Source of the DNA: Actinomadura bangladeshensis
Lineage (GTDB): Bacteria; Actinomycetota; Actinomycetes; Streptosporangiales; Streptosporangiaceae
Length of the DNA stretch: 64,000 bases
Assembly: GCF_004348335.1 (NCBI RefSeq)
Contig: NZ_SMJW01000001.1
Location: forward strand, 1 to 64,000
Direction of reading: 5' to 3'
Positions 285 through 23,978 of the stretch are shown here, piece after piece. The notes below the pieces were generated by a model. It did no database searches, had not been told where the DNA came from, and saw nothing but the letters and a program-made list of their open reading frames with translations. The translations under genes and the position numbers were made by a program. The first letter of the stretch is position 1, and each line of letters begins with the position of its first letter.

Positions 285-302
285 CCGCCGAAGGAGTTCC
301 GC

Positions 303-5209: not shown

Positions 5210-5220
5210 CCACGCGGCCG

Positions 5221-6930: not shown

Positions 6931-7107
6931 GCTCATCCCCCCGATCGGACTCCAGACCCATTCCCCCGGCACACCCCGGACACGCCACGCGCGAGCCGTC
7001 CATCACAGGGTGCCCCCGTAAGTGAAGGCGACCGAGCCGCGGTCGACCGCGCCGGCGGGCCGCGTCGCACCGGCATCCGAGCGTCCCGGACGAGCCCGGC
7101 CGGACCC

Positions 7108-7434: not shown

Positions 7435-7486
7435 TCACGGCCGCCCTCACCGCTTGCGGGACCGCCGCCCTGTGGGCGTCGGGCTG

Positions 7487-7843
7487 TCACTCGGGTACAG
7501 CGGCGGCGATGGTGATGGCCCGGTCCACCCCGGTCGTCCGCAGGTAGTCCGCGACCCGCTGAGTCGGGCCGACCAGGACCAGTTCCCGCCCAGGACCCTC
7601 GCTCGTTTCCGGCCGACACGAACGCGTTCATGCCGGAGGAATCGCAGAACTGCACTCCGGACAGCTCCAGGGCCACCCGCGGCGGGCAATCCACCGACAA
7701 CGCGCGGGATACGTGATCGTCCAGTGCGGGAACGGTGGCCATGTCAGCTCGCCCACCACCGGCGGGTCGGCTTGGCGCGGGCCGGACACGGCAGTCACCG
7801 CGTTCCCGACGCCGAGCCGAATCTGGAGACGGGCCGGGGCGCA
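7487..7843 (-). pseudogene. STAS-domain anti-sigma factor antagonist, two frameshifts
   Basis: Three reading frames on the minus strand join into one STAS protein. An upstream part runs LQIRLGVGNAVTAVS to GEL; a middle part is MATVPALDDHVSRAL followed by VALELSGVQFCDSSGMNAFV, with the phosphorylatable serine in CDSSGM; and an end part is RELVLVGPTQRVADYLRTTG, then VDRAITIA. The first shift lies at about 7743, where GELDMA needs one more base, and the second at about 7610. The gene is therefore inactive unless the sequence is wrong. It neighbours the PP2C phosphatase, its natural partner class. Confidence 0.7.
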
Positions 7844-7887
7844 GGAGGGCGCCGTTGCCGGCGGGCGTGTGGGCGGGTATGGCGGTG

Positions 7888-8322
7888 TCAGTCCCGTTCA
7901 GGGGCAGGGGTTTGGTCGAGGCGTTGCTGGAGTTGTGTGTTGATGCGTGTGGCTTCGGCGAGTTGGTCTTGAAGAATGATGATGCGGCAGGCGGCGTCCA
8001 GCGGGGTGCCCTGGTCGATCAGGTCGCGGGCGCGTTGGGCCAGGCGCAGTTGGTAGCGGGAGTAGCGGCGGTGGCCGCCGGCCGAGCGTTGCGGGACGAA
8101 CAGCTTGGCGGCGTCCAGTCCGCGCAGGAATCCCGGGGTGACGCCGAGGAGTTCGGCGGCCCGGCCCATGCTGTAGGCCGGGTAATCCTCATCGTCCAGC
8201 TTGTCGTCGAGCGCGGCGCCGGGTTCGGCGCCGGAGTCGCCCCGCACCGGACCGGGCTTGGCCGGGCGCGGGTCACGGCGTGCTGAGTGGGGGCCGGTCT
8301 GAACCGGCTGGGGTGCTCTCAC
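7888..8322 (-). CDS. MerR-family transcriptional regulator
   Basis: 144 residues. After a basic, disordered N-terminus, the MerR DNA-binding domain spans about 60-130, with YSMGRAAELLGVTPGFLRGL as the helix-turn-helix and GGHRRYSRYQL as the wing. A C-terminal helix (IIILQDQLAEATRINTQLQQ) resembles a dimerisation coiled coil. No metal-binding cysteines follow, so it is closer to HspR- or BldC-like MerR proteins than to metal sensors. The GTG at 8322 is chosen because GGAAGG lies four bases upstream. The frame stays open far beyond, but that extension looks non-coding. Confidence 0.75.
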   Translation of the reverse strand: MRAPQPVQTGPHSARRDPRPAKPGPVRGDSGAEPGAALDDKLDDEDYPAYSMGRAAELLGVTPGFLRGLDAAKLFVPQRSAGGHRRYSRYQLRLAQRARDLIDQGTPLDAACRIIILQDQLAEATRINTQLQQRLDQTPAPERD

Positions 8323-9050
8323 AGAACCTTCCGTACTGTTGTGAATCGTCCGCGCCGAACGCATGCCGGACCGGACGCATGCGGGAACGACGGGGCCCCG
8401 GCGCCAAAGGGCGGCGCCGGGGCCATGAGGTACAACACCATCTATCCGGCGCTTGGGCCGTTTGTCGTCCGCACCGGCCGCCTGGGGCGGAGGCGCGGGG
8501 ATCGCGGATGCGTGACCGTCAACCACCGTCCAATCTGTGGGGCTGCGGTACCCGCGCGGCGTGACTGGAGCGCGCTGCGGGCGATCCCGATGGTGCCGAA
8601 GCCCTCCTTCCGTGTTCTTCCTACCTGCGTTACTTGTGTTTCTTGCGGTACTGCGACTTGCCTTCGTGCTGCCGGCGGCCCGTTGGCCACCGGCCGCGGA
8701 GCCGGCTGCCGGAGTCCCTTCCACTGCGTTGACCCCGGCACGCCCGGCCCGCGTCATCCATCTGTGCGGGCAGTTCGTCATCTGCCACGCCTGCTGGACT
8801 TGTTCCTCTTCGATGACAGGAACCATACCCCACGCCGACGCGAATATCTACCTCGATCACCACAGGTTTTCGGTGATCGGCGGGCGCGGTTCACGCGAGC
8901 GGTTGTGGCGGACTACGGCGGCGCGCCCACGGCGGTGGGCAGCCCCTCACCCGCCTCCTGTTCACCCGCGCGCGCTTCTCTTGGCGGTCTCCACCTCACC
9001 GCTCGCGTGGTCATGCCTCCCTCCTGCGGGGCGTGTGCCGGCAGGAGGGT
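8323..9050. other. gene-poor stretch
   Basis: About 730 bases between the MerR gene and a decayed hypothetical gene. All frames translate to Arg/Pro/Ala-rich sequence with no family features. A short element TCGTCATCTGCCAC at about 8777 recurs with one change (TCGTCATTTGCCAC) at about 9706, which may be a relic of duplicated sequence. I see no RNA gene or complete mobile element. Confidence 0.4.
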
Positions 9051-9475
9051 TCACTCGCCCATCCCGGCCTGCATATCGGCGCCATCTGCCTCTGCATCAT
9101 CCGCGTCAGTGGCGTCGGCTGCGGCCAGCGCCCGGTGGAGACTGGTCAGCGCGGTCTCGGATTCGTGGTGGCTCAGCAGCCAGACCGTGCCCCAGCCGGA
9201 GACCAGGAACCGGGCCCGGATAGCCAGTGTCCGGCTCCCTCGGCCGACATCCCGGACGCCCGCCGGCGGGACGCGCGGGCCGCCGCTTGAACAGATCGGC
9301 ATCGCAGCGGACCAGGATCTTCAGCACGTGGTAGTACGGGATGGTCTCCCCGCGGGGCAACCAGCAGGCTCGGGCCCGGGGCCGACATCGAGGAACATCG
9401 CCCGGCCCGCCCGGTCGACCTCGAACCGCAGGCCCGGGACGGGGTGCGGTTCACCGGCACGGACCGTGCACCGCC
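9051..9475 (-). pseudogene. hypothetical protein broken by frameshifts
   Basis: Coherent protein-like segments occur in three successive minus-strand frames. In order they are RAGEPHPVPGLRFEVDRAGR plus AMFLDVGPGPE; then GETIPYYHVLKILVRCDADL; then RTLAIRARFLVSGWGTVWLL plus SHHESETALTSLHRALAAAD up to the stop. Read together they form an ORF of about 140 residues of unknown family. At least two indels separate the segments. It lies in the decayed region upstream of the broken cold-shock gene. Confidence 0.45.
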
Positions 9476-9659
9476 CGTGGCGCTTCCGCACCAATTGCCT
9501 TCCGTGACGCTGCGGCGGATGCGGCTGCTGGTACTTCGTCTGGTGCGGGAGAACCCGGGTTGGGCTACCGGCGGGTACACGGCGTAGCTGGCGCGCGGTG
9601 TCAGGGTGGCAGTCTCCACGGAAGGGAAGCCACCGCCCAGGGCCGCCATCGCAGACGTG

Positions 9660-9707
9660 GAAACGCCCGCGGAGTTCCGACATCGGAGCTTCAGCAGCGG
9701 GCGTTTC
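9660..9707. promoter_or_regulatory. nested inverted repeat upstream of the cold-shock gene remnant
   Basis: GAAACGCCCGC at 9660-9670 is perfectly complementary to GCGGGCGTTTC at 9697-9707, with a 26-base loop. The loop itself contains TCCGACATCGGA, a second small palindrome. The structure begins 135 bases before the csp ATG. It could be a terminator for upstream transcription or a 5' leader structure of the cold-shock mRNA; the sequence alone does not decide. Confidence 0.6.
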
Positions 9708-9794
9708 GTCATTTGCCACTCCAGACGGGCGGACGGCCAGCAGCCCGGATCGACGCAGCCGCGTCGATCCGCACCCGTCCGAAGGAGACACCCC

Positions 9795-9922
9795 ATGACT
9801 CAGAGAACCGTGAAGTGGTTCAACCCCGACAAGGGATCGGGTTCATCGCCCCCGATGACGGCACCGCCGACATCTTCGTCCATCAGTCAGTGATCGACAG
9901 TGACGGCTTCCGCGCGATCTGA
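9795..9922 (+). pseudogene. cold-shock protein (CspA family), frameshifted and truncated
   Basis: An ideal GAAGGAGA lies eight bases before the ATG. The N-terminus MTQRTVKWFNPDKG is a typical CspA start with the RNP1 region. One base is missing near 9831, after which the correct frame continues GFIAPDDGTADIFVHQSVID plus SDGFRAI and stops at 9922. The C-terminal third (about 25 residues including the last beta strands) is absent. It is therefore doubly damaged, unlike intact CspA proteins of 65-70 residues. Confidence 0.85.
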
Positions 9923-10270
9923 CAACGCGCGCCAAGAGCACAGCATCGACGGGCAGGACCGCGAAGACGGTCCTGCCCGTCGGTGCGACCACGGCGAAAT
10001 CTTGATCGGGCCGATCGTCAGCGGACGGTGGCTGGTGGGACGTTGAGTCGCGGCGGAGGCCGTCGGTGTAGGTCGCGGTGAGCAGCCCGGCGGGCAGGGT
10101 GTCGCATCAGTTGAGGCGCACCTCCGGAAAGCCGCGGGGTTGAGGCTGGCGTAGTCGGAGAATGAGCCGAGAGAGTTGTCCGAGGAGCTTCCCGCCCTAC
10201 GGGTGGACCACAGGCGCAGGGCGGCCGCGTAAAATTTGGCCACACCCTTGCAGTGAGAGGCACCGGCCCC
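9923..10270. other. gap with no recognised gene
   Basis: About 350 bases. No frame gives a credible protein; short patches in different frames suggest eroded coding sequence. A comparatively AT-rich patch (GCGTAAAATTTGGCC) at about 10227-10241 lies just ahead of the next small gene and could contain its promoter. Confidence 0.3.
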
Positions 10271-10570
10271 ATGAGGCTTGAACTCACCAACCTCGAAGCC
10301 CTGCACGGTTGGGGCATCGTCAACAACAGTGCCAGTTGGCATGCTCAGCGCAACCGCAAGCCCCCCGCGGCCGAACGGGCGGTCGGACACATCCTCTTCA
10401 CGGCATACGGCTGCCGGACCGACACCACGACCACGGTTGAACTCAGCGACGACGAGCGTGCGAGCCTCGCCGAACTGGTCGGCGAACACATCGCAGTGTG
10501 GGGCAAGCGCGGCCAGGAGAACGCCGCAACACCTCACCTGCGCTCGCTGGTCATGAAGCTGGGCGGCTGA
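10271..10570 (+). CDS. hypothetical protein of an actinomycete gene pair
   Basis: 99 residues, start ATG 10271 (GTG 10253 possible). The sequence MRLELTNLEALHGWGIVNNS followed by the end ENAATPHLRSLVMKLGG gives a small soluble alpha/beta protein that I cannot assign. Codon usage is normal for the window. The next gene starts one base after its stop, so the two are almost certainly co-transcribed. Such short pairs are common in actinomycete integrative elements, fitting the nearby island end. Confidence 0.55.
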   Translation: MRLELTNLEALHGWGIVNNSASWHAQRNRKPPAAERAVGHILFTAYGCRTDTTTTVELSDDERASLAELVGEHIAVWGKRGQENAATPHLRSLVMKLGG

Positions 10571-10571
10571 C

Positions 10572-10745
10572 ATGCCTACACCGGGCAGCCCGAAACGAAC
10601 GTTCCGCTTCGCCGGGGATGCCCTGTGGGCCGACTACGGTCAGGCGCGCCATGACGTCAACGGCAGCGCGGATCGCAGCGATGACATCCGCAAACACGTC
10701 GAGGCCGTCGCCGCCGAATGGAAGAAGCGACGAGAGAAGAGTTGA
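10572..10745 (+). CDS. 57-residue hypothetical protein
   Basis: The ATG at 10572 lies one base after the preceding stop. The 57-residue product is rich in charged residues and ends in a basic helix (VEAVAAEWKKRREKS), with FRFAGDALWADYGQARHDVN before it. No family is recognised. The gap-free arrangement with the upstream gene and consistent codon usage support it being real. A small DNA- or RNA-associated protein is possible from the basic tail, but this is only inference. Confidence 0.5.
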   Translation: MPTPGSPKRTFRFAGDALWADYGQARHDVNGSADRSDDIRKHVEAVAAEWKKRREKS

Positions 10746-10941
10746 CCCTCCGGTGCGGCGCTCGGCTTCCGCGCAGCTCACCTGAGGCCACCGGCGGGGA
10801 AGTCACAAGGTTCCCGACAGCCCATGCCGGCTCGTGGTCCCGGCCCCGCAGAGTGATGAGTCCAATGCGTGGGCGGTGGCCCGTGAGGTGTCGGTGCAGC
10901 TCACAGCAGCACTGTTCTGGCTGCTAGGACACAGGAGGCGG

Positions 10942-12036
10942 TCATGGGGTCGGTGTCAGCGAGCCGTCGGGGGTGCGGGTCTGCTTGCGCAGGCGGGTGA
11001 GGACGTGCCGGGCGTCGGCGGCAACTCCGCGCAGGGTGGCTGAGGCGAAGGAGCGCTGCCATTCCAGCCCGACGAATCCCAGTCCCGGATGCGTGGCCGA
11101 GACGCCGCCCCGGTGGCGGGGCTGCCCGTCATCGTCGAGTGCGCCCAGTGGGGCGAGGTACTCCACGCCCGGCCGGAACCCGGTGGCCAGCAGCACCACG
11201 TCAACGTGTTCGCGGGTCCCGTCGCTCCAGAGGACCTGGTCGTCGTCCAGGCGGGTGAACATCGGGCGGCGGTCGGGGTTGCCGGTGGCGATGGCGTCGC
11301 GGTAGGTGCCGGTGTCGAACACCGGGGTGCCCTTGCCGCCCGTCAGCAGTGGGCGCGCCCACCCGGCGGCGTCCAGTCCGGTGCGCTGCAGCCAGATGTG
11401 CATGTCGACGCCCAGCACGCGCTGGGGCATGAAGCGGAGCGGGTGTCGGGTCGCCAGCGTGACGTCGGCGACCGCGGCCAGTTCGATCGCGATCTGCACG
11501 GCCGAGTTCCCGCCCCCCACGACCACGACGCGCCGGCCGGTGAACGGGTCGGGACGCCGGTAGTCGGACGAGTGCAGCACCGTGCCGGGGAAGCCGTCCA
11601 GTCCCGGCAGGTCCGGGCGGTGGGGGCGGCTGAATCCGCCCGTCGCGGCGATCAGCAGCGGCGTGGCGAAGACCTCACCGCTCGTCGTGATCACCTCGAA
11701 CCCCGGTGGTGTGCCGTCCTTGCCGGCCAGGACGGTTTCGACTCGGTGACCGGTGCGGATGTCGGCGTCCAGGTGGGCGGCGTAGTCGGTCAGGTAGGCC
11801 ACGACCTCGTCCCGTGTGGGGTAGCCGTCCGGATCGCCGGGGAACTCCGCTCCGGGCAGGGCGCTGCGCCTGGCCGGTGAGAAGAGAGTGAGGCTGTCGT
11901 AGTAGTGGGGCCAGGACCCGGCCGGCTGGCCTGTCGCCTCCAGGACGATGGGCTCCAAGCCGAGGGACCGGGCGATGCGGGCGGTGGCCAGACCGGCCTG
12001 GCCGCCGCCGATGATGACGAGTGGTGCGGTGAGCAT
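10942..12036 (-). CDS. arsO: ArsO-like FAD/NAD(P)-dependent monooxygenase
   Basis: 364 residues with two Rossmann motifs: FAD-binding GGGQAGLA at about 9-16 and NAD(P)-binding VVVGGGNSAVQ at about 172-182. Between them are the ATGG joint and a LLATGF-like segment near the C-terminus (VLLATGFRPG). This is the small flavin monooxygenase type found in arsenic clusters as ArsO. The exact reaction in arsenic metabolism is not settled. It diverges from arsR1 across an ArsR-type operator and ends upstream of a gene-poor gap. Confidence 0.8.
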   Translation of the reverse strand: MLTAPLVIIGGGQAGLATARIARSLGLEPIVLEATGQPAGSWPHYYDSLTLFSPARRSALPGAEFPGDPDGYPTRDEVVAYLTDYAAHLDADIRTGHRVETVLAGKDGTPPGFEVITTSGEVFATPLLIAATGGFSRPHRPDLPGLDGFPGTVLHSSDYRRPDPFTGRRVVVVGGGNSAVQIAIELAAVADVTLATRHPLRFMPQRVLGVDMHIWLQRTGLDAAGWARPLLTGGKGTPVFDTGTYRDAIATGNPDRRPMFTRLDDDQVLWSDGTREHVDVVLLATGFRPGVEYLAPLGALDDDGQPRHRGGVSATHPGLGFVGLEWQRSFASATLRGVAADARHVLTRLRKQTRTPDGSLTPTP

Positions 12037-12043
12037 GGGGCGA

Positions 12044-12083
12044 ACATATCAACATTTCATGAAATAATGTAGTATTGATATGT
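12044..12083. promoter_or_regulatory. ArsR-type operator in the divergent arsO-arsR promoter
   Basis: ACATATCAA at 12044-12052 and TTGATATGT at 12075-12083 form a perfect 9-bp inverted repeat with a 22-base spacer. A second perfect palindrome, ATTTCATGAAAT, lies at 12054-12065 between the arms. ATCAA/TTGAT half-sites are typical of ArsR/SmtB operators. The site covers the -10/-35 area of both arsO and arsR1, so arsenite would be expected to derepress both genes. Confidence 0.75.
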
Positions 12084-12124
12084 GGCGTATGCTGGGCGCA
12101 CACCTCGGGGAGGAGCCAGCAGCG

Positions 12125-12481
12125 ATGGTCGAGCCGGTCGAGAGGGCGACTGCGGCACCGGGCGGTTGCGGGGCGGCGCCGGCCGCTCAGCTCGGCGCCG
12201 GAGCACGCGAGTTCCTCAAGGCGCTGGCCAGCGAGCAGCGGCAGCAGATGCTCGAACTCTTCGCGGGCGGCGTCGAACTCACCGTCGGCACGGTCGCCGA
12301 GCGCCTCGGGGTCGGCCAGTCCAACGCCTCGCAGCAGCTCGCGCTGCTGCGCCGAGGCGGCCTGCTCACCTCGCGCAGGGACGGCAAGCAGGTCTTCTAT
12401 CGCATCGACTCCGCCGCGGTCGACCGGTCACTCGCCGAACTCCGCACCTACCTGCACACCTGCTGCCCACCCGGCAACTGA
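12125..12481 (+). CDS. arsR: ArsR/SmtB-family repressor 1
   Basis: 118 residues. The winged helix spans about 25-95, with LTVGTVAERLGVGQSNASQQ as the recognition helices and GGLLTSRRDGKQVFYRI as the wing. Metal(loid)-binding cysteines are not in the alpha3 helix but a pair sits at the very C-terminus (TCCPPGN), with one more near the N-terminus (GGCG). This could be a non-canonical As(III) site. The ATG at 12125 follows GGGGAGGAG; an upstream in-frame ATG at 12080 lies within the operator and lacks a ribosome site. It is convergent with arsC. Confidence 0.85.
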   Translation: MVEPVERATAAPGGCGAAPAAQLGAGAREFLKALASEQRQQMLELFAGGVELTVGTVAERLGVGQSNASQQLALLRRGGLLTSRRDGKQVFYRIDSAAVDRSLAELRTYLHTCCPPGN

Positions 12482-12602
12482 GGCCCCCTGGCGCGGCTGT
12501 CACCGTACGTCCCCAACGGACCGATCTGGAGCAGCCAGACCGGGCAGAGCACACGTTGCCGAGGACGTCACGCCCCCGGCGCCCGGCTGTGCTCTTTCTC
12601 CT

Positions 12603-13025
12603 TCACTTCTCCGATAGGAGCCCGCTGACCAGGTTCTCGATGCGCTTGCGGATTTCGTCGCGGATCGGGCGGACGGCGTCGACGCCCTGTCCGGCGGGGT
12701 CATCGAGGGTCCAGTCCAGGTAGCGCTTGCCGGGAAACACCGGGCAAGTGTCACCGCATCCCATGGTGATGACCACGTCGGAATCTTGGACGGCATCGAC
12801 GGTGAGCACCTTGGGGGTCTCGGCGGAGATGTCGATACCCTCCTCCGCCATCGCCTCGACCACCGCCGAGTTGACCTGGTCGGCCGGCGCGGACCCGGCG
12901 GAGCGCACGTCGATCCGGTCACCTGCCAGGTGGGTGAGGTAGGCGGCGGCCATTTGAGAGCGTCCGGCGTTGTGCACGCACACGAACAGGACGCTGGGCT
13001 TGGCAGAGCGAGCCTGATCAGGCAT
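12603..13025 (-). CDS. arsC: arsenate reductase, low-molecular-weight phosphatase type
   Basis: 140 residues of the LMW-PTP-like ArsC family, which reduces As(V) to As(III). The catalytic loop CVHNAGRSQ (Cx5R, about residues 16-24) is followed by GCGDTCP (about 89-95), which supplies a second pair of cysteines as in thioredoxin- or mycothiol-coupled enzymes. The product As(III) would be exported by the Acr3 pump encoded just upstream on the same strand. It is the last gene of the arsR2-acr3-arsC unit. Confidence 0.93.
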   Translation of the reverse strand: MPDQARSAKPSVLFVCVHNAGRSQMAAAYLTHLAGDRIDVRSAGSAPADQVNSAVVEAMAEEGIDISAETPKVLTVDAVQDSDVVITMGCGDTCPVFPGKRYLDWTLDDPAGQGVDAVRPIRDEIRKRIENLVSGLLSEK

Positions 13026-13104
13026 CGGCGTTCCTTCGCTGTTCGAGGCCGGGCCGGTCGAGGGTGGTGAGCGCCTCGGTGGCGAGCAGGTCGGTGACGG
13101 TCAT
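13018..13104 (-). CDS. possible 28-residue leader or small ORF between acr3 and arsC
   Basis: A short frame from ATG 13104 (MTVTDLLATEALTTLDRPGL, then EQRRNADA) ends in a TGA that overlaps the arsC start by eight bases. Such an overlap would couple translation of arsC to it. It may equally be a chance frame or a remnant; there is no strong ribosome site and no family match. Confidence 0.25.
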   Translation of the reverse strand: MTVTDLLATEALTTLDRPGLEQRRNADA

Positions 13105-13111
13105 CGTCGTG

Positions 13112-14203
13112 TCACCGCCCCGCGGGTTGGAATCGGCGACGCAGCCACAGCGATACGTACACCAGCCCGACCAGGACCGGAACCTCGATCAGCGGGCCGA
13201 CCACGCCCGACAGGGCCTGCCCGGAGGTGACGCCGAAGGTGCCGATGGCGACGGCGATCGCCAGCTCGAAGTTGTTCCCCGCTGCGGTGAAGGCGAGCGT
13301 CGCGGTGCGCGGGTAGGGCAGCCGGACGGCGTGTCCGAGGGCGAAGGATCCGCCCCACATGAGCGCGAAGTAGGCCAGCAGCGGCAGCGCGATGCGGGCG
13401 ACGTCGCCGGGCCGGCCGGTGATGGTGTCGCCTTGCAGGGCGAACAGGATGACGATGGTGAACAGCAGCCCGTACAGCGCGACCGGGCCGATCCGGGGCA
13501 GGAACCGCTCCTCGTACCAGGCGCGGCCGCGGGCCCGTTCACCGAAGCGGCGGGTCAGGTAGCCGGCAGCCAGCGGGACGCCCAGGAACACCAGCACGTT
13601 GACCACGATCTTGCCGACCGAGAAGTCCGCATCGTCGGTCGCCAGGCCCAGCCACCCGGGCAGGACCTGCAGGTAGAACCAGCCGAGCGCACCGAACGCG
13701 ACGACTTGAAAGACGGAGTTGAGGGCGACCAGGACGGCGGCGGCCTCCCGGTCGCCGCAGGCCAGGTCGTTCCAGATGATGACCATCGCGATGCAGCGGG
13801 CCAGCCCGACGATGATCAAGCCGGTGCGGTACTCGGGCAGGTCCGGCAGGAAGATCCAGGCCAGCGCGAACATCACCGCCGGGCCGATCACCCAGTTGAG
13901 CAGCAGCGAGGTCAGCATCAGGCGGCGGTCGCCGGTGACGGTGTCGAGCCGGTGGTAGCGGACCTTGGCCAGCACCGGGTACATCATCACCAGCAGGCCC
14001 AGCGCGATCGGCAGCGAGATCCCGCCGGCCTCGACCTCGGCCAACGCGTCGTCCAGTCCGGGGACGGCACGTCCCAGCCCGAGACCGAGCACCATCGCCG
14101 CGATGATCCACACCGGCAGGAACCGGTCGAGCATCGACAGCCCGGCCACCACTCCCGCTTCCTGCGGGCGTGTGGCGGCACCGGAGCCCTGCGTGCTGGT
14201 CAC
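13112..14203 (-). CDS. acr3: arsenite efflux permease, Acr3 family
   Basis: 363 residues with about ten hydrophobic segments, the size of bacterial Acr3 permeases. The conserved cysteine region appears as GLARCIAMVIIWNDLACGD (about 137-155), and the family segment AFTAAGNNFELAIAVAIGTF occurs near the C-terminus. It exports As(III) across the cytoplasmic membrane using the proton-motive force. The GTG at 14203 is chosen: it overlaps the arsR2 stop as GTGA, and GGAAGAGG lies eight bases upstream. A GTG at 14209 is the alternative. Confidence 0.92.
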   Translation of the reverse strand: MTSTQGSGAATRPQEAGVVAGLSMLDRFLPVWIIAAMVLGLGLGRAVPGLDDALAEVEAGGISLPIALGLLVMMYPVLAKVRYHRLDTVTGDRRLMLTSLLLNWVIGPAVMFALAWIFLPDLPEYRTGLIIVGLARCIAMVIIWNDLACGDREAAAVLVALNSVFQVVAFGALGWFYLQVLPGWLGLATDDADFSVGKIVVNVLVFLGVPLAAGYLTRRFGERARGRAWYEERFLPRIGPVALYGLLFTIVILFALQGDTITGRPGDVARIALPLLAYFALMWGGSFALGHAVRLPYPRTATLAFTAAGNNFELAIAVAIGTFGVTSGQALSGVVGPLIEVPVLVGLVYVSLWLRRRFQPAGR

Positions 14204-14511
14204 GTGCACGGCCTCTTCCGCCGGCGGGTCTGGGCCTCGCGGGCACCGGCCGCCAACTCACCGAGTTCGGAAGCCAGGCGCTCCAACGCCTCGGGACGCA
14301 GCCGGTAGTAGGTGAACCGCCCGCAAGGCTCGGTGTCCACCAGCCCGGCCTCGCGCAGCGCCCGCAGGTGGTTGGAGATGTTGGTCTGCCTGGCGCCGGT
14401 CTCCTCAACGAGGTGGCAGTTGCACAACGCCTCAACAGCCAGCAGCGACACGATCTGCGCACGCAGCGGGTCGGCCAGCAACTTCAACACATCAGTCTGA
14501 ACTGACATCAT
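14200..14511 (-). CDS. arsR: ArsR-family repressor 2 with Cys-x-Cys sensor
   Basis: 103 residues. The alpha3 segment ALCNCHLVEE has the two cysteines of the classical As(III) site, followed by the recognition helix TGARQTNISNHLRALREAG and the wing EPCGRFTYYRL, which supplies a third cysteine. This differs from the divergently placed ArsR1, so the cluster has two distinct sensors. The gene heads the arsR2-acr3-arsC unit and overlaps acr3 by four bases. The start could be 14511 or 14508. Confidence 0.88.
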   Translation of the reverse strand: MMSVQTDVLKLLADPLRAQIVSLLAVEALCNCHLVEETGARQTNISNHLRALREAGLVDTEPCGRFTYYRLRPEALERLASELGELAAGAREAQTRRRKRPCT

Positions 14512-14894
14512 GCCTGGATGATACATACAGCCGGGAACAGTCCATTCGGACACCTACTGCGGCGAGCGTTGCGATGGTCAGCCAGCGCCAACGTGGTCCG
14601 CGGGGAGCGGCCAACAGCGCGCCTTATTGTGCGAGCGTCATCACTGTTGGTGGGCAGTGTGATGATCACTAACTCGCCGACTCCGCCGGAAGCGCGGGTG
14701 CCCAGGACAGACGCGACGCCCCTGAACTACCGGTTGAGCTCGTCCTTGACCGAACAGGCAGTCACACCCGAAGGCGGACGTTCTCCGAGTGGGACCCGGC
14801 GTGATCACGATCGTCCGAGTAGCGAGACCAACGTGGCACCGGCGGAGGCTGTACTCGGCAACCGCCGGGTACAGCCTCCGCGTCCATGCAGCAG

Positions 14895-15357
14895 CACGGT
14901 CAATGGCGGTCCGTGCGGACGCACGGGGACCAAGACCCGCAAGTCCCGCCGGACCCTTGGGCTGCCCGCCCAGGCAGCCGAGGCCCTGCGCAAGCACCAC
15001 ACGCGCCAAGTCGCCCAGCGGCTCAGCGCCGGTGAGGCCCAGGAGGACAACAACCTGGTCTTCAGCACCCGAAGCGGAACCGCATTGGACGCCGCCAACG
15101 TCCGTCGCGGCTTCCGGCTGATCACCGCCAAGGCGGGCATTGGCGAGCAGCGGACGCCCCGCGAACTCCGGCACTCCTTCGTCTCGATCATGAGTGACGG
15201 CGGCGTCCCGCTGGAGACGATCGCCGACCTGGTGGGGCACGCCGGGACGGCGGTGACCGAGAAGGTGTACCGGCATCAGCTGCGGCCGATCATCATCCGA
15301 GGGGCCGCGACCATGAACACAGTCTTCGGCCAGAGCCGTCCGGTGCAGTCCGCGTAA
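14895..15357 (+). pseudogene. tyrosine recombinase (integrase), truncated
   Basis: The catalytic C-terminal half is clear: TKTRKSRRTLGLPAQAAEAL, NLVFSTRSGTALDAANV, TPRELRHSFVSIMSDGGVPL with the HxLRH-type arginine box, LVGHAGTAVTEKVYRHQLRP with the conserved histidine and nucleophilic tyrosine. The N-terminal core-binding domain and first catalytic arginine are missing. Near 14922 a reading-frame change splits WRSVRTHGD from TKTRK. The element is therefore probably immobile. It sits directly beside a hairpin and a tRNA 3' half, the usual int-att layout. Confidence 0.8.
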
Positions 15358-16943: not shown

Positions 16944-17678
16944 ATGGCCGATGACCGCTGGACTCCCCCCGAAGTCATGCTCGCCGTCGATCTGGTGATC
17001 TTGACGCTGCGAAGGTCTCTCCTTCATGTGCTGCTGATCGAACGCGGCATCGAGCCCTACAAGGGGACTTTGGCGCTTCCGGGCGGCTTCCTGCAGCACG
17101 CCGAGGAGGACATCACCGCCGCTGCCCACCGCGAGCTGGCGGAGGAGGCAGACATGGACGTCGAGACGCTGCACCTTGAACACCTGGGCGTCTACGGTGC
17201 CCCCGGCCGGGACCCGCGCGGACGGGTGGTGTCGGTCGCCTTCCTGGCGATCGCCCCGCGGCTCCCGGAACCGGCTGCCGGCACGGACGCGGCCGCGGCC
17301 CGGTGGCAGCGAGCAGATCAGGTGCTCTCCGGCGACCTGGAGCTCGCCTTCGACCACCGGCGGATCGTCGAGGACGGTGTCGAGAACGCCCGCGCCAAGC
17401 TCGAGCACTCCGCGCTCGCCACGGCGTTCTGCGGCCCGACGTTCACGATCACCGACCTCCAGCGGGTCTACGAAGCGGTATGGGGGATCTCTCTCGACCC
17501 CCGCAATTTCTATCGCAAGGTTCAGAAGACCAGCGGCTTCATCGTCGCGGCCGGCCCGGAACGCAAGGGCACGACCGGCCGACCGGCCCGGCTGTTCAGG
17601 GCGGGTCCTCAGAAGGCTCTGAATCCGCCGATGGTCCGGCCAGTCGAACCGTCGATCATGAAGGGATCGGGACAATGA
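16944..17678 (+). CDS. NrtR-like regulator: Nudix domain plus winged helix
   Basis: 244 residues. The Nudix domain spans about 10-140, with GGFLQHAEEDITAAAHRELA then EEADMD as a slightly relaxed Nudix box (one extra residue between the glycine and the first glutamate). The C-terminal winged helix spans about 150-225, with FTITDLQRVYEAVWGISLDP and the conserved FYRKVQKTSGFIV and TTGRPARLFR wing. NrtR-type proteins bind nucleotide-sugar or dinucleotide ligands and repress NAD metabolism or neighbouring genes. Here the gene heads an operon with a nucleoside phosphorylase-like protein and overlaps it by ATGA, behind a perfect palindrome. Confidence 0.85.
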   Translation: MADDRWTPPEVMLAVDLVILTLRRSLLHVLLIERGIEPYKGTLALPGGFLQHAEEDITAAAHRELAEEADMDVETLHLEHLGVYGAPGRDPRGRVVSVAFLAIAPRLPEPAAGTDAAAARWQRADQVLSGDLELAFDHRRIVEDGVENARAKLEHSALATAFCGPTFTITDLQRVYEAVWGISLDPRNFYRKVQKTSGFIVAAGPERKGTTGRPARLFRAGPQKALNPPMVRPVEPSIMKGSGQ

Positions 17679-18823
17679 GCGGCAATACGATCGTCGTTCT
17701 CACGGCGCTGGACGTGGAGTACGAGTCCGTCCGCGCGAAGCTGGACAGGCCGCGGCTGTATCGCCACCCGCAGGGCACCCGATTCGAGGTGGGCCGGCTG
17801 GCGCGCGGCCGGGCACGCATCGCACTGGGCCTCGTCGGGAAGGGCAACCAGTCCGCGGCGGTGCTGGCCGAACGCGCCATCAACGAGTTCTCCCCGGCGG
17901 CGCTGCTGTTCGCAGGGGTCGCCGGGGCCCTGCACTCCGACATCGCCCTCGGGGACGTGGTGGTGGCCACCCACATTTACGCGTTCCACGGCGGGACGAG
18001 TGAGGACGACGGGTTCAAGAGCCGCCCCCGGGTCTGGGAGGTATCGCACGGCGCCGACCAGATCGCCCGGCATGTGGCTCGCAACCGCGCATGGGCGGCC
18101 GGTCTCGACGGCCAGGAGCCCACGGTGCATTTCGGGCCGATCGCAGCAGGCGAGGTCGTACTGAACTCGACGACTTCGCCGCACGCGCACTGGATCCGGC
18201 AGAACTACAACGACGCACGCGCCATAGAGATGGAGGGCGCCGGCGTGGCACAGGCCGCGCACCTCAACAGGTCCCTGCCGGTGGTCGTGATCCGGGGCGT
18301 CAGCGACCACGCCGACGGCACCAAGGAGACCACCGACCGCGAGCACTGGCAGGCGCGGGCGGTGGCGAACGCTGCGGCGTTCAGCACCGCACTGGCCGAA
18401 ACCCTGTCCGCCGAGGAACCGCAACAGCGCGAACCGGCCGATACGAAAGGGACACCGATGATGAGCGACACCATTCGCAACGTCGCCAAGGACAACGCAC
18501 GGGTGGTCGTGCAGGCTGGGCACGTGCACGGAGGCATCCGGGTGTCCGGTGACCACGGAGCCCCCACCGACCCCACCGCGGCGATCGCCGAACTCGTCAT
18601 CCGGCTTCGGCAGGCGCGGACGGCGGGGCACCTGGACGAGGACACCTACCGCACGGCCGAGGCGGAACTCGCCGCCGCCCGCGAGACGCTGCAGACGACC
18701 GATCCGCATGACGTCGGGGCGGTGACGCTGGCCCTGAAGAAGGTGCGCGGGCTGGTCGGGGACGTGGCCGCCCTTTCCGCAGAAGTGGCGAGCGTCATCG
18801 CCCTGGTTCAAAGCCTGTCATGA
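17675..18823 (+). CDS. PNP/MTAN-fold nucleoside phosphorylase or nucleosidase with C-terminal amyloid-like motif
   Basis: 382 residues. The PNP_UDP domain (about 1-245) keeps LFAGVAGALHSDIALGDVVV for phosphate/base binding, AIEMEGAG for the ribose-binding glutamate (about 182-189) and IRGVSDHADG with the catalytic aspartate (about 206-215). It is probably enzymatically active on a nucleoside or nucleotide. After a linker the segment ARVVVQAGHVHGGIRVSG (275-292) resembles bacterial RHIM-like amyloid signalling motifs, followed by a helical tail. PNP domains occur as effectors in bacterial and fungal NLR-type immunity. An in-frame ATG at 18458 preceded by AAAGGGA could give the tail separately. 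Both ends overlap neighbours (ATGA). Confidence 0.85.
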   Translation: MSGNTIVVLTALDVEYESVRAKLDRPRLYRHPQGTRFEVGRLARGRARIALGLVGKGNQSAAVLAERAINEFSPAALLFAGVAGALHSDIALGDVVVATHIYAFHGGTSEDDGFKSRPRVWEVSHGADQIARHVARNRAWAAGLDGQEPTVHFGPIAAGEVVLNSTTSPHAHWIRQNYNDARAIEMEGAGVAQAAHLNRSLPVVVIRGVSDHADGTKETTDREHWQARAVANAAAFSTALAETLSAEEPQQREPADTKGTPMMSDTIRNVAKDNARVVVQAGHVHGGIRVSGDHGAPTDPTAAIAELVIRLRQARTAGHLDEDTYRTAEAELAAARETLQTTDPHDVGAVTLALKKVRGLVGDVAALSAEVASVIALVQSLS

Positions 18824-20796
18824 CCGCGCAGGGCACCACTGCTGGACCGAATGGCACCACGACGAACTACGCCGGAGATTCCGCCTACGTCGGAGTCCAG
18901 GCGGGAGTCGTGCACGGCGACGTATATGTCTACGAGACCCCCGCAGGCGCATCGCCTGCGGAGATGTTCGAGATCGGCGTCCGGCTGCTCGCCGGCGGCA
19001 TACCGGGAAAGGCACGTGAGCTCATCGGCCGAGCCGTCATGGACGGCGGTCTCACCGGCAACCGGGTCTGCTTCCACTGGCAGCTCGCCCTCGTCAGCGG
19101 CCGGACACGGCACGAGATGCCGCAGGAGCACCTCACCATGCTGCATCGGGCACCGGGAACCTGCAACGCCACCGGTGACGACGCATGGGCGGACGGAGTG
19201 CGGACCTTATGCCGGCTGCTGGAGTCCGCGCAGCAACCCGACGAAGACCTACGTCCCCTGCTCAAGGACCTCGACGGGCTTGCCGACGCGCAGCGCTCCA
19301 TGATCCTTCGGCACCTGCAGTTGTTCCTGGACGGGCCACTCGAGAACCAGATGTGGCACCGCGCCCTGGACAGCGCCCAGCAGAAACAGATGGCGAATGG
19401 CAGAGCAGACCGTGTCTGGAAGTTCTTCGAGCCGAAACCGGCCCGGCCGCGGGTCCGTGAGCCGCGACCACCGGACCTCACAACCGGCACCTGGGTTCAA
19501 GCTTTGGTGTCGACCGCCGTTCTGACCGCGGCGGCGATCCACATCGCTTACCTTCTGGTGCGGGAGCTTCAGGCGGTCGCTCTGCTTGCGTACCTGCTGA
19601 GCGTCGGTGGCGGCTATTGCGCCGCAAGGGGCGGCGTGGAGTGGCGCTTCCACATCCAGCGGCGCCGCGTGAAGGACGCGCAATATGCGCCGTGGACGCG
19701 TACGCGAAGTGCCCCCTCCGGCGGCTTCGCCGACATGGTGGGCCGGCGTTTAGACCACTACTTCGCCAGATACGTTCCACGTGACACCAGCAGGTCCGTC
19801 TGGTTGGCCGAGACGGCGGGGATCCGCAGGTGCCTGCGCGACGAAATCGTGGACGTCTACCGGGAGCAGCGGATCGGCGTCGAAAGGATCTCCTGGCTGA
19901 TCCGGTACCGGGTCAGCGACGTCAGGGCACGGTGGGAGAACGGCAGGCTGTGGGACTACCGGCGGGAACTCGCCACTCCCCCGGCCTCCATGCTGCTGAC
20001 GGTCCTCGGTCTCGCCCTCCTCGTCCCCGGGGTCACGTGGACACTGGAGGTCGCGGTACGGATCGACCCGCTGAGCGCCGTCCGCACGGCCACCTTCGCA
20101 CTGGCGGCCGGCGTGATCGCCGCCCACGCCTGGCTGCGCATCGTCCTGGAACGCAGGCGACATGCGGCCGACCTCGCCGAGAAGGAACGAACCATGAAGG
20201 ACTGCGAGGAGGCCTTCGAGCGCTGGAAGGCGAAGCTAGCCGACAAACCCGACGACCGCCAGATGGCAGCCTGGCTGGACTGCGACCGGAAAATGCTTCT
20301 GGACGAGGCACTACGCCACTACCGGTTGACGATGAGCGGCCTGCTCTCCCACGCGTTCATCGAGACGCGCGCCTTCCCCGGCAGAAGCGCACGCGTACGC
20401 AAAGGGCCCTGGCGCTACGAGCGCTACAAGCTGCTCCTCTTCCTCCTCACCACGGACGGGGTACGGCAACTCAACGCCGAACTCGATTTCGTGAAGGGCA
20501 CCTTCCACGATCGGCAGCGGACCAACTACCGCTACGAGGCGGTCGCCGCCGTACGGGTACGCCAGACCGACGACGATGAACACGACTTCAGACTCACCCT
20601 CGTCAACGGTGAGGAGATCCGCGTCGAGGCAATGGCCCCGGATGCGGAGAAACTCCAGGATGAGCCGAGCGGCGTCGTGTCAGAAGTAACGCAGGACGCC
20701 GCCAACCTCCGCCACACCCTGACCGTCATGGAAGGAATCGCCGCGGAAGGCAAGCGGTGGATCGTACGAGAACGCCAACGCCTGGGCACCCAATAG
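18820..20796 (+). CDS. large membrane protein with N-terminal amyloid-like motif
   Basis: 658 residues, family unknown to me. Residues 22-38 (AYVGVQAGVVHGDVYVY) match the motif in the phosphorylase-like protein (VQAGxVHG). A helical, TPR-like soluble region follows (about 45-210). Two membrane segments lie at about 224-270 and two more at about 390-445. Between them is a charged cytosolic-type domain, and after them a long helical region and a beta-rich C-terminus (RYEAVAAVRVRQTDDDEH, DFRLTLVNGEEIRVEAM). The gene overlaps the phosphorylase stop by ATGA. The layout suggests a membrane-bound sensor or second effector in a conflict system (inference). Confidence 0.8.
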   Translation: MTAQGTTAGPNGTTTNYAGDSAYVGVQAGVVHGDVYVYETPAGASPAEMFEIGVRLLAGGIPGKARELIGRAVMDGGLTGNRVCFHWQLALVSGRTRHEMPQEHLTMLHRAPGTCNATGDDAWADGVRTLCRLLESAQQPDEDLRPLLKDLDGLADAQRSMILRHLQLFLDGPLENQMWHRALDSAQQKQMANGRADRVWKFFEPKPARPRVREPRPPDLTTGTWVQALVSTAVLTAAAIHIAYLLVRELQAVALLAYLLSVGGGYCAARGGVEWRFHIQRRRVKDAQYAPWTRTRSAPSGGFADMVGRRLDHYFARYVPRDTSRSVWLAETAGIRRCLRDEIVDVYREQRIGVERISWLIRYRVSDVRARWENGRLWDYRRELATPPASMLLTVLGLALLVPGVTWTLEVAVRIDPLSAVRTATFALAAGVIAAHAWLRIVLERRRHAADLAEKERTMKDCEEAFERWKAKLADKPDDRQMAAWLDCDRKMLLDEALRHYRLTMSGLLSHAFIETRAFPGRSARVRKGPWRYERYKLLLFLLTTDGVRQLNAELDFVKGTFHDRQRTNYRYEAVAAVRVRQTDDDEHDFRLTLVNGEEIRVEAMAPDAEKLQDEPSGVVSEVTQDAANLRHTLTVMEGIAAEGKRWIVRERQRLGTQ

Positions 20797-20921: not shown

Positions 20922-21884
20922 ATGGAGGGTGTCGTGCCAGCTACGGGGAACGGACGGGCCGACTGGGCTCGCCTCACCATCTTCCTGTCCGCCCGTCCGG
21001 CAGATGAAGAGGAAGTGGCCCTGTCATGGCCTGAGCTACGCCGAATCGTAGGCTATCTTCCTGTCTCGGCGGTCCGCCATTACCCACAGTGGTGGCACGG
21101 CGATCGGTCACATGTTCGTGCTTGGCGGGCTGCCGGCTACACGGTCACTATGATCCGGCCAGGAAGCTCAGTGACCTTCCGCAGGATCGGAGCCGATCGC
21201 CAAGTCGTCTCCGCGACCGCAGGCCGACAGATGTCTCCTGCGCTACCCACCGGTAGCGCAGGGCCACTGCAGGAGCTAAATAGAAGCGAAACTCTTCTGG
21301 TCATCCCATGTTCGAAGGGCAAGCGAACCGGCGGCAGAACGGGTAACCGAGAGGAAGCGCAGTGGCCGTCCGACCTAATCGCAGCCCGAGCGCGCAACCG
21401 AACCTCGGCCCACGTGGACGAACGGCAAGTACTCCCAGCATGGCGCCGCTATAGCGGGGGTTTCTACTCGGCCGCTCAGTCCAGCCTGCGAGAAGCGGTA
21501 GTTCAGGACATACCCTTGATCATTCTCAGTGGCGGGTACGGCGTCCTGCACGCCAGGGAGCACATCGGTGACTACAATAAGATCATGCGCTCGGCCGACT
21601 GGCCGGCTGGTCTTCTCGAAAGTCTCCTGCTCCATGAGGCTCGAAAAAGAAACGTATCATCCGTCGTGGCCTTTGCGGCAAAGAGCTCCGACTACGCACG
21701 GGTGGTACGGGCGACGCCCTGGGGCCAGGCCGGGCTGACCGCGTATCTGGTTACGATCATGGGCGTAGGCAAGGGGGCCTCCGGCATGGTGCCACGTCGA
21801 CTCGGCCAGGCGTTCGCTGCCTTCTGGCAAGGGCAGCCCGCCGATCAATACCCGGAGGGGACAACTGTGGAGCGTCTCGCATGA
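20922..21884 (+). CDS. two-domain protein: DUF7662-like plus YaaA/DUF6884-like
   Basis: 320 residues. The N-terminal domain (about 8-85) reads ARLTIFLSARPADEEEVALS, then RRIVGYLPVSAVRHYPQWW and AWRAAGYTV, a small domain of unknown function seen near restriction systems. The C-terminal domain (about 120-300) begins LLVIPCSKGKRTGG and contains IPLIILSGGYGVLHAREHIG, as in YaaA and DUF6884 proteins; YaaA relatives bind DNA or act in oxidative-damage protection and deazaguanine pathways. GTG at 20934 with GGAGGG four bases upstream is an alternative start. Lower GC than flanking genes suggests acquisition. The next gene overlaps by ATGA. Confidence 0.75.
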   Translation: MEGVVPATGNGRADWARLTIFLSARPADEEEVALSWPELRRIVGYLPVSAVRHYPQWWHGDRSHVRAWRAAGYTVTMIRPGSSVTFRRIGADRQVVSATAGRQMSPALPTGSAGPLQELNRSETLLVIPCSKGKRTGGRTGNREEAQWPSDLIAARARNRTSAHVDERQVLPAWRRYSGGFYSAAQSSLREAVVQDIPLIILSGGYGVLHAREHIGDYNKIMRSADWPAGLLESLLLHEARKRNVSSVVAFAAKSSDYARVVRATPWGQAGLTAYLVTIMGVGKGASGMVPRRLGQAFAAFWQGQPADQYPEGTTVERLA

Positions 21885-22582
21885 GCGACGGGAATGCTGA
21901 CCGCCGAAAGGATACCGAGCGGTTCTATTTTCTGCTCGGCCGGTTGGAGGAGCGCATCGGGGGACCGCGGCTACTCCGAAACTGCGATCATGCCACCGGT
22001 TGGCCGAAGTACGGTGTGGAGTTCTTCCTCGAAGAAGGCCAGTTCCGAACCGGAGGAGACGGGCTCCGCGTGGTACGTGTGGGCAGCCATGCCTTGCGGG
22101 CTACGTCCCAGGCGACCTTCTGGGGCAGGTTGGCCCAGCATCGAGGTCCGGTCAGCGGAGCCAATGCAGGCGTAGGCAATCATCGCGGCTCCATATTCCG
22201 CCACCACATCGGTACAGCACTGCAGCAGGTCGACGACTGGCCGGCCGATGTGGTGCAGTCTTGGCGACAGACGAAGGTCAGCCCGGCCCAACACAAAGCT
22301 GAAGGACCATTCGAACAGGCCGTGAGCGAGCATATAACAGCTATGCCGCTCCTTTGGCTGGACGTGCCTGACCGCGAACAAAGGAAGTCCATTCGGGCCA
22401 ACTCGATCTCCCTGCTCTCCCAACGCAACGGTGGCGTTCACCGCACCACTTCCGGCTGGCTTGGCCTGCATGCCGAGAACGAGCACGTCCGTACGTCCGG
22501 GCTATGGAATAGCGACCACGTCGATGATCCATATGACCCATCCTTCCTCGACGACATGGAGGCCCGCGTGAAAGCCATGTGA
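21881..22582 (+). CDS. GIY-YIG-like nuclease
   Basis: 233 residues. The core spans about 45-125: YGVEFFLEEG corresponds to the GIY strand, LRVVRVGSHAL to the YIG strand, then TFWGRLAQHRG with the catalytic-type arginine, and GNHRGSIFRHHIGTAL with the conserved asparagine/histidine helix. The usual glutamate further on may be in the FEQAVSEHI helix. GIY-YIG enzymes cut DNA during repair, restriction and homing. The gene overlaps the YaaA-like gene by four bases and is 76 bases from the glycosylase gene, so the three look functionally linked. Confidence 0.7.
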   Translation: MSDGNADRRKDTERFYFLLGRLEERIGGPRLLRNCDHATGWPKYGVEFFLEEGQFRTGGDGLRVVRVGSHALRATSQATFWGRLAQHRGPVSGANAGVGNHRGSIFRHHIGTALQQVDDWPADVVQSWRQTKVSPAQHKAEGPFEQAVSEHITAMPLLWLDVPDREQRKSIRANSISLLSQRNGGVHRTTSGWLGLHAENEHVRTSGLWNSDHVDDPYDPSFLDDMEARVKAM

Positions 22583-22658
22583 CGAACCACCCGAACTGGG
22601 GCCACGATGATCGGTCCCAATCGTCGATCAACTCGTGGCCATGCGTTAGGCTCGCCAT

Positions 22659-23978
22659 ATGGGCGACACGGTCAATCCCAGGATCCGCCTCGTCGAGATG
22701 AAGGCCTTGGGGCCGTTCTCGTGGCGTTGGCCCGAAGGGGTCGAGTACTTCGAGCGCGGTTGGGTCGCCGTTGCGACGGTGAACGGTCGAGAAGTTCTTG
22801 TCCGCCACGGAATCGGACACAGAGACACCTATGGGCGGACGCGTGTCCATTCGGTAACCTGGGTCGAGGGCAATCCTCTCGTCGAGGGTGTCGAGTCGGA
22901 TGACTTCGACGAGTCCGAGAGCTTGCTGAGCTTGATCAAGGTGACCAAACGGCATCTGAAACCGGATGACGCGACGCCGCTGGGCTATCGCACGCTTCCC
23001 ATCGTGGTGGTGGCCGACCAAATCAGCGCACCGGGTGCACCACGAAGTCTGGCGGTGAAGCTCCGGCAGGATGACGTTGATGGCTGGACTCGTCACGCCC
23101 TACTGCGGGCCGTGAGCTGGAGGCACTTTCCGTCCCAACCGGATGGCCGGAAGACTCTTCCCCCAGCCTCCAAGGTCGGCCCCGCTCCCGCCGCACTGGC
23201 GACAAAGAGTGACATCGAGCTCCGTGACGGTGTAGTCACCGCACTCTTGGCCTACGCCGAACATATCAAGTCCGCTCCGAAGGAACCGGTGGTGGATTTC
23301 ACTCAAGACCAAGAGGCGAACGAGTTTCTCCGGACGAATGGTTTCGCTTTCCTGACCGGACTGCTCTTCGACCAGGGAGTACCAGCGGAGCGGGCCTGGC
23401 GCGCACCGTTTCTTCTCCGTCAACGCCTTGGTCACCTCGACCCCGCCCGCATCGCCGAAGACGAGGCGGGAGTGCGAGAGGCCATCGCGCTTTCCCCCAA
23501 GCTGCACCGATACATCGAGAAGATGCCTCGCTGGCTGACTCTCGCTGCTCGCCGCGTGATGACCGAGTACGAAGGCGACGCCGGAGCCATCTGGTCCGGC
23601 AATCCCGACGCGAGGGAGTTGCAAGATCGCTTTAAGGCCTTCGCCGGCATCGGCCAGAAGATATCGGCGATGGCGGTTGAGATCTTGGAGCGCGACCTCG
23701 CCGTCCCAATCAGGAACATGGAAGGGAGCGACGTCGCTTACGACATCCACCTGCGCCGTGTCTTCCTCCGTACGCGTCTCGCCGACGTGGACGACCGCGA
23801 CCACATGATCACCAGGGCCCGGACGCTGTACCCTCCCCGCCCAGGTGCGCTCGACCTGCCCAGCTGGCTTATCGGGCGCGGTTGGTGTCATCCCGGACTC
23901 CCAGACTGCGCCACCTGCCCCCTCACCGAGGTGTGCGTCAAGGACATCGAACGAGCGGACCATGTCGCCAGTGCCTAG
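22659..23978 (+). CDS. HhH-GPD DNA glycosylase (endonuclease III-like) with extra N-terminal domain
   Basis: 439 residues. The C-terminal half is endonuclease III-like. FLTGLLFDQGVPAERAWRAP begins the domain (about 225). FKAFAGIGQKISAMAVEIL is the helix-hairpin-helix (about 325-343), DVAYDIHLRRVFL carries the catalytic aspartate (about 368), and CHPGLPDCATCPLTEVC is an exact C-x6-C-x2-C-x5-C [4Fe-4S] signature (about 410-426). The first 210 residues form an unrecognised domain. It should excise altered bases and may nick DNA. TTAGGCT seven bases before the ATG could be a -10, implying a leaderless transcript. Its neighbours suggest base-modification-directed defence or repair. Confidence 0.8.
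   Translation: MGDTVNPRIRLVEMKALGPFSWRWPEGVEYFERGWVAVATVNGREVLVRHGIGHRDTYGRTRVHSVTWVEGNPLVEGVESDDFDESESLLSLIKVTKRHLKPDDATPLGYRTLPIVVVADQISAPGAPRSLAVKLRQDDVDGWTRHALLRAVSWRHFPSQPDGRKTLPPASKVGPAPAALATKSDIELRDGVVTALLAYAEHIKSAPKEPVVDFTQDQEANEFLRTNGFAFLTGLLFDQGVPAERAWRAPFLLRQRLGHLDPARIAEDEAGVREAIALSPKLHRYIEKMPRWLTLAARRVMTEYEGDAGAIWSGNPDARELQDRFKAFAGIGQKISAMAVEILERDLAVPIRNMEGSDVAYDIHLRRVFLRTRLADVDDRDHMITRARTLYPPRPGALDLPSWLIGRGWCHPGLPDCATCPLTEVCVKDIERADHVASA

Follow-up and report, generated by a model that had tools for sequence, protein, structure and literature searches.

What do three adjacent genes in a low-GC stretch of an actinobacterial contig encode, and do they act together on DNA? The window analyzed here comprises positions 1 to 64,000 (64,000 nucleotides) of contig NZ_SMJW01000001.1 from Actinomadura bangladeshensis, and the genes, called A, B, and C below, lie at 20922-23978. 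An earlier note, made from the sequence alone, had proposed that they form a base-excision-based restriction or repair system. The three adjacent plus-strand open reading frames (ORFs) that it described are present, and their guanine-plus-cytosine (GC) content is indeed lower than that of the surroundings (0.628 across 20922-23978 versus 0.708 at 1-14500 and 0.722 at 25269-64000). Comparison across genomes indicates that A and B are very likely one functional unit related to PDC-M57, an uncharacterized candidate in PADLOC, to which C, a predicted DNA glycosylase, is an optional but linked addition. The reading that we tentatively favor is that the three genes are a PDC-M57 variant carrying a DNA glycosylase and attacking, most likely, modified phage or plasmid DNA by base excision. 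The features are as follows.

20922 to 21884, plus strand: gene A, 320 residues; N-terminal DUF7662 domain followed by a YaaA/DUF6884/DpdC-like domain, with the CxxxK motif kept and LSAxxG reading LSGGYG
21881 to 22582, plus strand: gene B, 233 residues; PDC-M57B family, GIY-YIG-like, with Glu47 and Arg172 in place of the GIY tyrosine and the predicted catalytic glutamate
22659 to 23270, plus strand: N-terminal domain of gene C, 204 residues; modeled with beta-strands at low confidence and belonging to no known family
23280 to 23978, plus strand: C-terminal HhH-GPD (helix-hairpin-helix) domain of gene C, with Lys334, Asp362, and iron-sulfur (Fe-S) cysteines 410, 417, 420, and 426

Genes A and B overlap by the sequence ATGA (21881-21884), and C starts 76 bases past the B stop codon. 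All three look maintained, since the estimated ratios of nonsynonymous to synonymous substitution rates (dN/dS) are 0.09 to 0.27, with dS near saturation and the estimate for A taken from its YaaA part only. A scan for sigma-70 promoters and terminators returned 0 sites, a search for flanking direct repeats gave just four short imperfect pairs, and no counterpart of the TAGGCT box just before C was found in three relatives.

Gene B was sought across genome contigs, and the best 80 of 218 places were kept. By contig title, these 80 loci span many phyla. An A-type gene is the same-strand neighbor of B in 65 of them and is fused to it in 9; it lies on the opposite strand in 2 (L135 and L141) and is missing from 4 (L076, L086, L102, and L121). 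Because A adjoins or is fused to B in 74 of the 80 loci, the pair is very likely a single functional unit. The earlier note had named a lack of co-occurrence in other genomes as counting against its proposal, but the genes do co-occur, both in this pairing and through C-type genes that stand beside A-type genes, B, or both in L070, L103, L050, and L051. By sequence comparison, the pair corresponds to PDC-M57. B matches the PDC-M57B model (E = 1.7e-61), and A stands next to B on one strand, an arrangement that is our own reading of the system; the model for the A component is not matched. Since A fits DpdC models only, we regard the window's pair as a divergent relative of PDC-M57 rather than a plain member. 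The likeness is that B is a clear PDC-M57B and that A is homologous to proteins fitting PDC-M57A and occupies the same place beside B. In contrast, the window's A is a diverged DUF7662 fusion, its B is without two predicted active-site residues, and a glycosylase has been added. Candidates with PDC names are described as unvalidated products of a "guilt-by-embedding" approach (PMC12988326), and a search of the published literature found neither PDC-M57 nor DUF7662 or DUF6610; DUF6884 appears in 2 papers. With A, B, C, and overlapping ORFs set aside, no cluster of neighboring genes covers more than 11 of the 80 loci; one cluster, of 8 loci, includes the window's integrase fragment.

The B family was compared in an alignment (A5) of 76 of 85 B stretches, from which L047, L049, L057, L060, L102, both L143 pieces, the short second L144 piece, L147, and the fused chains were left out. 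Mean column identity is 48%. By motif reading the family is GIY-YIG-like, with GVY, RVG, RxxxH, and IERN motifs; the last resembles ILEAN of the compared UvrC sequences, and on this motif we equate the predicted catalytic glutamate of B with that of UvrC. The predicted order of strands and helices also fits GIY-YIG by eye. Position 47 is tyrosine in 72 of the 76 sequences and glutamate in the window, L042, L043, and L066. At position 172, glutamate is found in 70, arginine in the window and the same three relatives, and lysine in L078 and L107. The Glu47-Arg172 combination is thus shared by the window's B with L042, L043, and L066 only, whose B proteins are 70 to 74% identical to it. The earlier note had called B a GIY-YIG-like nuclease. 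Its placement in a GIY-YIG-like family stands, but "nuclease" is doubtful, given that the GIY tyrosine and the predicted catalytic glutamate are both replaced, and the window's B is probably not a nuclease. The simplest reading of the alignment is that the window, L042, L043, and L066 represent a clade whose B lost cutting. The protein nevertheless seems maintained, with dN/dS of 0.09 to 0.19 in this clade (dS near saturation). Elsewhere in the family, the B of a Methanoculleus metagenome-assembled genome (MAG) locus that has no A (L102, 7902-10136) carries a C-terminal extension of about 480 residues with no Pfam match.

For gene A, the ATG at 20922 lies near the start of the homologue alignment, and the open frame extends back to a GTG at 20757. 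DUF7662 occupies residues 70 to 144 of the long A ORF (Pfam E = 6.3e-23). The C-terminal half is YaaA/DUF6884/DpdC-like, in keeping with the earlier prediction, though Pfam scores are below cut-off: H2O2_YaaD is matched at E = 0.0038 (17.2 of 29.6 bits), and DUF6884 reaches 11.9 of the 30 bits of its gathering score. PADLOC DpdC models match the same half at E = 3.4e-6. CxxxK and LSAxxG are given as DUF6884/YaaA motifs (PMC11701544). The first is kept, from C185 to K189 (numbering of P0001), and the second reads L257-S-G-G-Y-G262, with the serine and glycine kept and G instead of A at the third place. We aligned 72 A-type sequences (alignment A4), including the window's A, the second A-type copies of L094 and L103, and some plasmid loci, and leaving out L060, L073, L115, L135, L141, and the 9 fused chains. 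DUF6884 is matched at E <= 1e-3 by 54 of the 72, the PDC-M57A model by 49, and one DpdC model by 58. The structure model of L123, a natural fusion, is confident across its A domain, which aligns with E. coli YaaA (Z = 9.1, root-mean-square deviation [rmsd] 3.3, 136 aligned), followed by AF0587 (Z = 9.0) and SMUG1 glycosylases at Z of about 5, which is within noise. DUF6884 is described as YaaA-like, its member YfjM is reported to be one of the proteins that bind abasic and RNA-base lesions, and YaaA itself is described as a DNA-binding oxidative-stress protein (PMC11701544). Two A-type proteins have other N-terminal domains, a MarR-like winged helix in L110 (1271-2212; below cut-off) and DUF7669 in L051 (476-1831), an indication that the front domain is exchangeable among A-type proteins.

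The HhH domain of C matches TIGR03252 (E = 3.2e-26, 92.1 of 136.5 bits). In a hidden Markov model (HMM) alignment, K334 and D362 of C fall on the lysine and aspartate of E. coli endonuclease III, which we take to be K120 and D138 of that enzyme, and the Fe-S cysteines C410, C417, C420, and C426 are spaced CX6CX2CX5C. The structure model of C is confident in the HhH part only, and this part matches endonuclease III (2abk; Z = 14.8, rmsd 3.8, 208 aligned) and the 5-methylcytosine glycosylase ROS1 (Z = 12.8). By sequence and model, C is an endonuclease III-type HhH glycosylase, for which base excision is predicted. The HMM alignment, the cysteine motif, and the model thus bear out the glycosylase with HhH, aspartate, and Fe-S cysteines that had been read from the sequence, and the lysine is kept as well. 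Among 12 aligned C-type domains, the lysine is kept in 11 and the aspartate in all 12; the domain of L184 is without one Fe-S cysteine. The N-terminal domain of about 204 residues, also predicted to be novel, has no Pfam match at E <= 1 and few relatives. Its model is strand-rich and of low confidence (predicted local distance difference test mostly <50), a search of viral contigs found none, and among 394 genomes of the class it occurs in its own genome and as a fragment in G067 only.

Could C be the common short HhH gene of actinobacteria? We rejected this, since contig C605 of the host genome carries a separate short HhH paralogue and the C type adds the Fe-S cysteines and, here, the N-terminal domain. 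A search with C in 250 genomes of the family gave 171 matches, most of them of the short HhH kind. Matches extending beyond the short HhH region (E < 1e-27) were found in 7 of the 250 (its own genome, G187, G055, G140, G026, G186, and G072); of these, the G140 copy is broken by stops, that of G026 runs off its contig, that of G186 is without the N-terminal domain, and G072 has the N-terminal domain only. Across 396 genomes of the phylum, 5, its own included, match at E < 1e-87, and the remaining matches are at 4.5e-33 or weaker. With a separate paralogue in the host and so few matches beyond the core, C does not behave as the ubiquitous chromosomal repair gene that the earlier note had named as the outcome that would count against it.

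C-type genes adjoin A-type genes, B genes, or both in five loci (the window, L070, L103, L050, and L051), which cover three phyla by contig title and kinship. The C-type gene lies 104 bases from B in L070, a Eubacteriales MAG, and upstream of A, 835 bases from B, in L103, a Pseudomonadales MAG. In the C-led loci L050 and L051, the DUF6884 protein next to C fits PDC-M57A (E = 1.4e-12 and 4.6e-27, respectively). Of 50 whole genomes from the 80 B loci, 14 have matches to the C-type profile (E <= 1e-12). Two of the matched genes are strong (E = 1e-108 and 9e-91), namely the L070 and L103 copies beside A-B; the other 12 genomes match at 1.5e-32 or weaker. HhH-like motifs are also fused to A and B together in L123 (1358-3187), to A in L097 (6659-7999), and to B in L076 (7140-8696), and one lies 2 to 3 kb from B in L102 (11046-11846). 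L123 and L097 share the same HhH-like domain (E = 4.7e-78), which has no Pfam match, and the HhH-like parts of L076 and L102 give sub-threshold matches to DUF6308 (E = 0.012 and 0.024) and OGG (E = 0.0071). As judged from these loci, C is optional but linked to A-B.

The favored reading starts from these observations: A pairs with B, the two are naturally fused in some loci, C is linked to them, and C has its catalytic residues intact. We infer from them a scheme in which A, through its YaaA fold, would bind DNA at an abnormal or missing base. C, guided by its own N-terminal domain, would remove the modified base and leave an abasic site or, via its lyase lysine, a nick. B would bind DNA together with A and would cut in most members; in the window's clade, it has probably lost cutting and may act as a DNA-binding partner. 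Because this B probably no longer cuts, strand breakage would fall to the lyase step of C or to the cell's own abasic-site (AP) endonucleases. The most likely target would be modified phage or plasmid DNA, with a role in defense. The earlier proposal of base-excision-based restriction or repair is therefore retained in part: the co-occurrence of A and B, the linkage of C, and the catalytic residues of C favor it, but B is probably without nuclease activity, and repair is still a serious rival of defense.

Several observations weigh against this reading. The window's A misses the PDC-M57A model and matches DpdC models only. None of the 76 B sequences has a Pfam match, hhalign profile comparison of B with GIY-YIG gave P of 0.011 to 0.033, and no GIY-YIG chain was among the PDB matches listed, where the A domain of L123 took up the lists. 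Given the motif reading, the hhalign values, and the Pfam result, a GIY-YIG fold for the B family is likely and unproven. On the side of C, the C-type domain of L103 is without the lyase lysine, and the C-type gene of L070 is convergent with A-B. No C-type gene was found in 78 of the 80 B loci, some of which end at contig ends, so that C is not an obligate part, which counts against the earlier proposal. Conversely, no A-type gene was found in 12 of the 14 C-led loci (L049, L052 to L055, L148 to L150, and L181 to L184; some with partial genes or contig ends) or in three loci with weaker C-profile matches (L056, L064, and L065). L042, L043, and L066, which share the losses in B with the window, have no C-type gene in their fetched flanks, and C is therefore not a general replacement for B cutting. 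Finally, PDC-M63AB and PDC-S04 are reported to have given no defense in the tested model (PMC12409345), which is a caution for any PDC.

A serious, if somewhat doubtful, contender is that the genes are an accessory module of DNA repair, in which A recognizes abasic sites or ribonucleotides, B processes them, and C excises the damaged base, the set protecting the host genome and being merely horizontally mobile. The oxidative-stress role of YaaA and the reported lesion binding of YfjM (PMC11701544) are consistent with such a module, as is the endonuclease III catalytic set kept in C. However, the distribution is patchy, with B in 9 of 250 family genomes and in three of these in pieces only; the genes occur in plasmid settings and with some integrase or resolvase neighbors, and the host already has another HhH paralogue.

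We consider it unlikely that C is a chance neighbor or a separate one-gene system, with A-B alone as the unit. The five adjacencies in three phyla argue against this, together with the HhH-like motifs fused into A or B chains and the fact that both strong C-type genes of the 50 B genomes adjoin A-B. Nonetheless, the 76-base gap from B to C is compatible with independence, as are the many B loci without a C-type gene and C-led loci without an A-type gene counted above. Highly improbable is the remaining alternative, in which A would be a DpdC-like enzyme and the set would serve 7-deazaguanine DNA modification of the host. DpdC models match the window's A, one of them matches most A-type sequences, and DpdC is described both as YaaA-type (PF03883; PMC12839542) and as DUF6884 (PMC11888242). 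However, no TGT family (PF01702) gene turned up in the window's genome or 10 further actinobacterial A-B genomes, for which reason we take the window's genome to be without DpdA, consider A unlikely to act on deazaguanine in host DNA, and rejected this assignment. The TGT family is present in 5 of 5 non-actinobacterial A-B genomes searched. A role on foreign rather than host deazaguanine DNA is conceivable.

The favored reading, a PDC-M57 variant carrying a glycosylase, can be extended to a bolder form that we hold to be doubtful. Here, immunity would proceed by base excision, with a YaaA-fold sensor and a nuclease-dead GIY-YIG-like partner passing foreign DNA to an endonuclease III-type glycosylase/lyase that took over cutting, and PDC-M57 as a whole would be a family of systems that attack DNA in dependence on modified bases, with interchangeable HhH base-removing domains. 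The latter idea comes from L123, which joins an HhH-like domain, the sensor, and the GIY-YIG-like protein in one chain. Should this hold, the anti-phage enzymes Brig1 and Brig3 would gain company in endonuclease III-type glycosylases, whose fold is different and whose lyase step nicks DNA directly. PDC-M57 is now tied to base-excision-type enzymes by adjacency and fusion, and the window points to a naturally occurring variant whose presumed nuclease has probably lost its activity. Testable residues are K334 and D362 of C, C185 and K189 of A, and Tyr47 and Glu172 in other B members.

Known systems resemble the locus in part. Brig1, of the uracil-glycosylase superfamily, is described as making abasic sites in modified phage DNA (PMC11078745), and the AAG-like Brig3 as making them in phage DNA, from an operon with the helper BapA (PMC13160076). 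Brig proteins are DNA glycosylases acting on modified phage DNA, and by analogy the same function is proposed for C. Unlike them as described, C is an endonuclease III-type HhH protein with Fe-S cysteines and a lyase lysine, and it stands beside A and B, whereas Brig3 stands beside BapA. CMoRE (PD-T4-3), reported as a GIY-YIG type IV restriction enzyme against modified phage DNA (PMC12923530), uses the domain that B resembles. However, CMoRE is a single protein with its own sensing domain, whereas B belongs to another family and to a clade without the GIY tyrosine and predicted glutamate. With endonuclease III and other HhH-GPD proteins, C shares the fold, lysine, aspartate, and Fe-S cysteines, but it differs in its extra N-terminal domain, patchy distribution, and PDC-M57-type neighbors. 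A shares the YaaA/DUF6884-like domain with DpdC, but its host is without TGT/DpdA. Among the 4 papers found in a search on phage defense, DNA glycosylases, and defense islands, none mentions HhH-GPD; one figure legend lists UDG among the domains of predicted systems (PMC13092281).

B occurs on haloarchaeal and Deinococcus plasmids (8 records). On the haloarchaeal plasmids L058, L059, and L060, DUF6610 is close to the B homologue and an A-type gene follows about 2 kb downstream; in L059 and L060 an HNH endonuclease gene overlaps the end of B. In L148 and L149, the C-type genes adjoin ORFs read by eye, with no family search, as phage portal and head genes; in L054, the neighbors of the C-type gene are Mu-type transposase and AAA genes. 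L103 contains pieces of a TmtA-like ATPase (248-4067) and an integrase-like ORF (by eye); a second YaaA-type protein with a ParE-toxin-like tail follows B there (8999-9970). B and C had no match in phage records. A scan of the nearest neighbors of A-B covered 112 of the 147 picked, and the best 25 of 133 and of 140 families were listed. Phage_integrase (3), Resolvase (3), Mrr (2), and SRA (1) are among the families listed for the 112 neighbors, with further models for HNH, AbiEii, and methyltransferase; these are raw counts, for which no enrichment is claimed. A QueC motif search among the neighbors found nothing, although Pfam listed one QueC.

Upstream of A, positions 16944-20796 hold an overlapping chain of genes for an NrtR-like Nudix regulator, a PN-superfamily nucleosidase, and a 658-residue protein without a family. 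The nucleosidase matches a PADLOC effector (E = 1.2e-17). At least 14 of the 59 further genomes searched in the genus have the chain conserved as a unit, at 72 to 95% DNA identity. We rejected the low-GC stretch from 16.9 to 24 kb as one unit: these genomes keep the chain without A-B-C, and their matches to it end near 20.8 kb. The chain may be an effector module in its own right. Positions 14518-15357, which lie at the edge of the low-GC stretch, encode the C-terminal portion of a tyrosine integrase (Phage_integrase, E = 9.3e-14) that may be left over from an integrative element.

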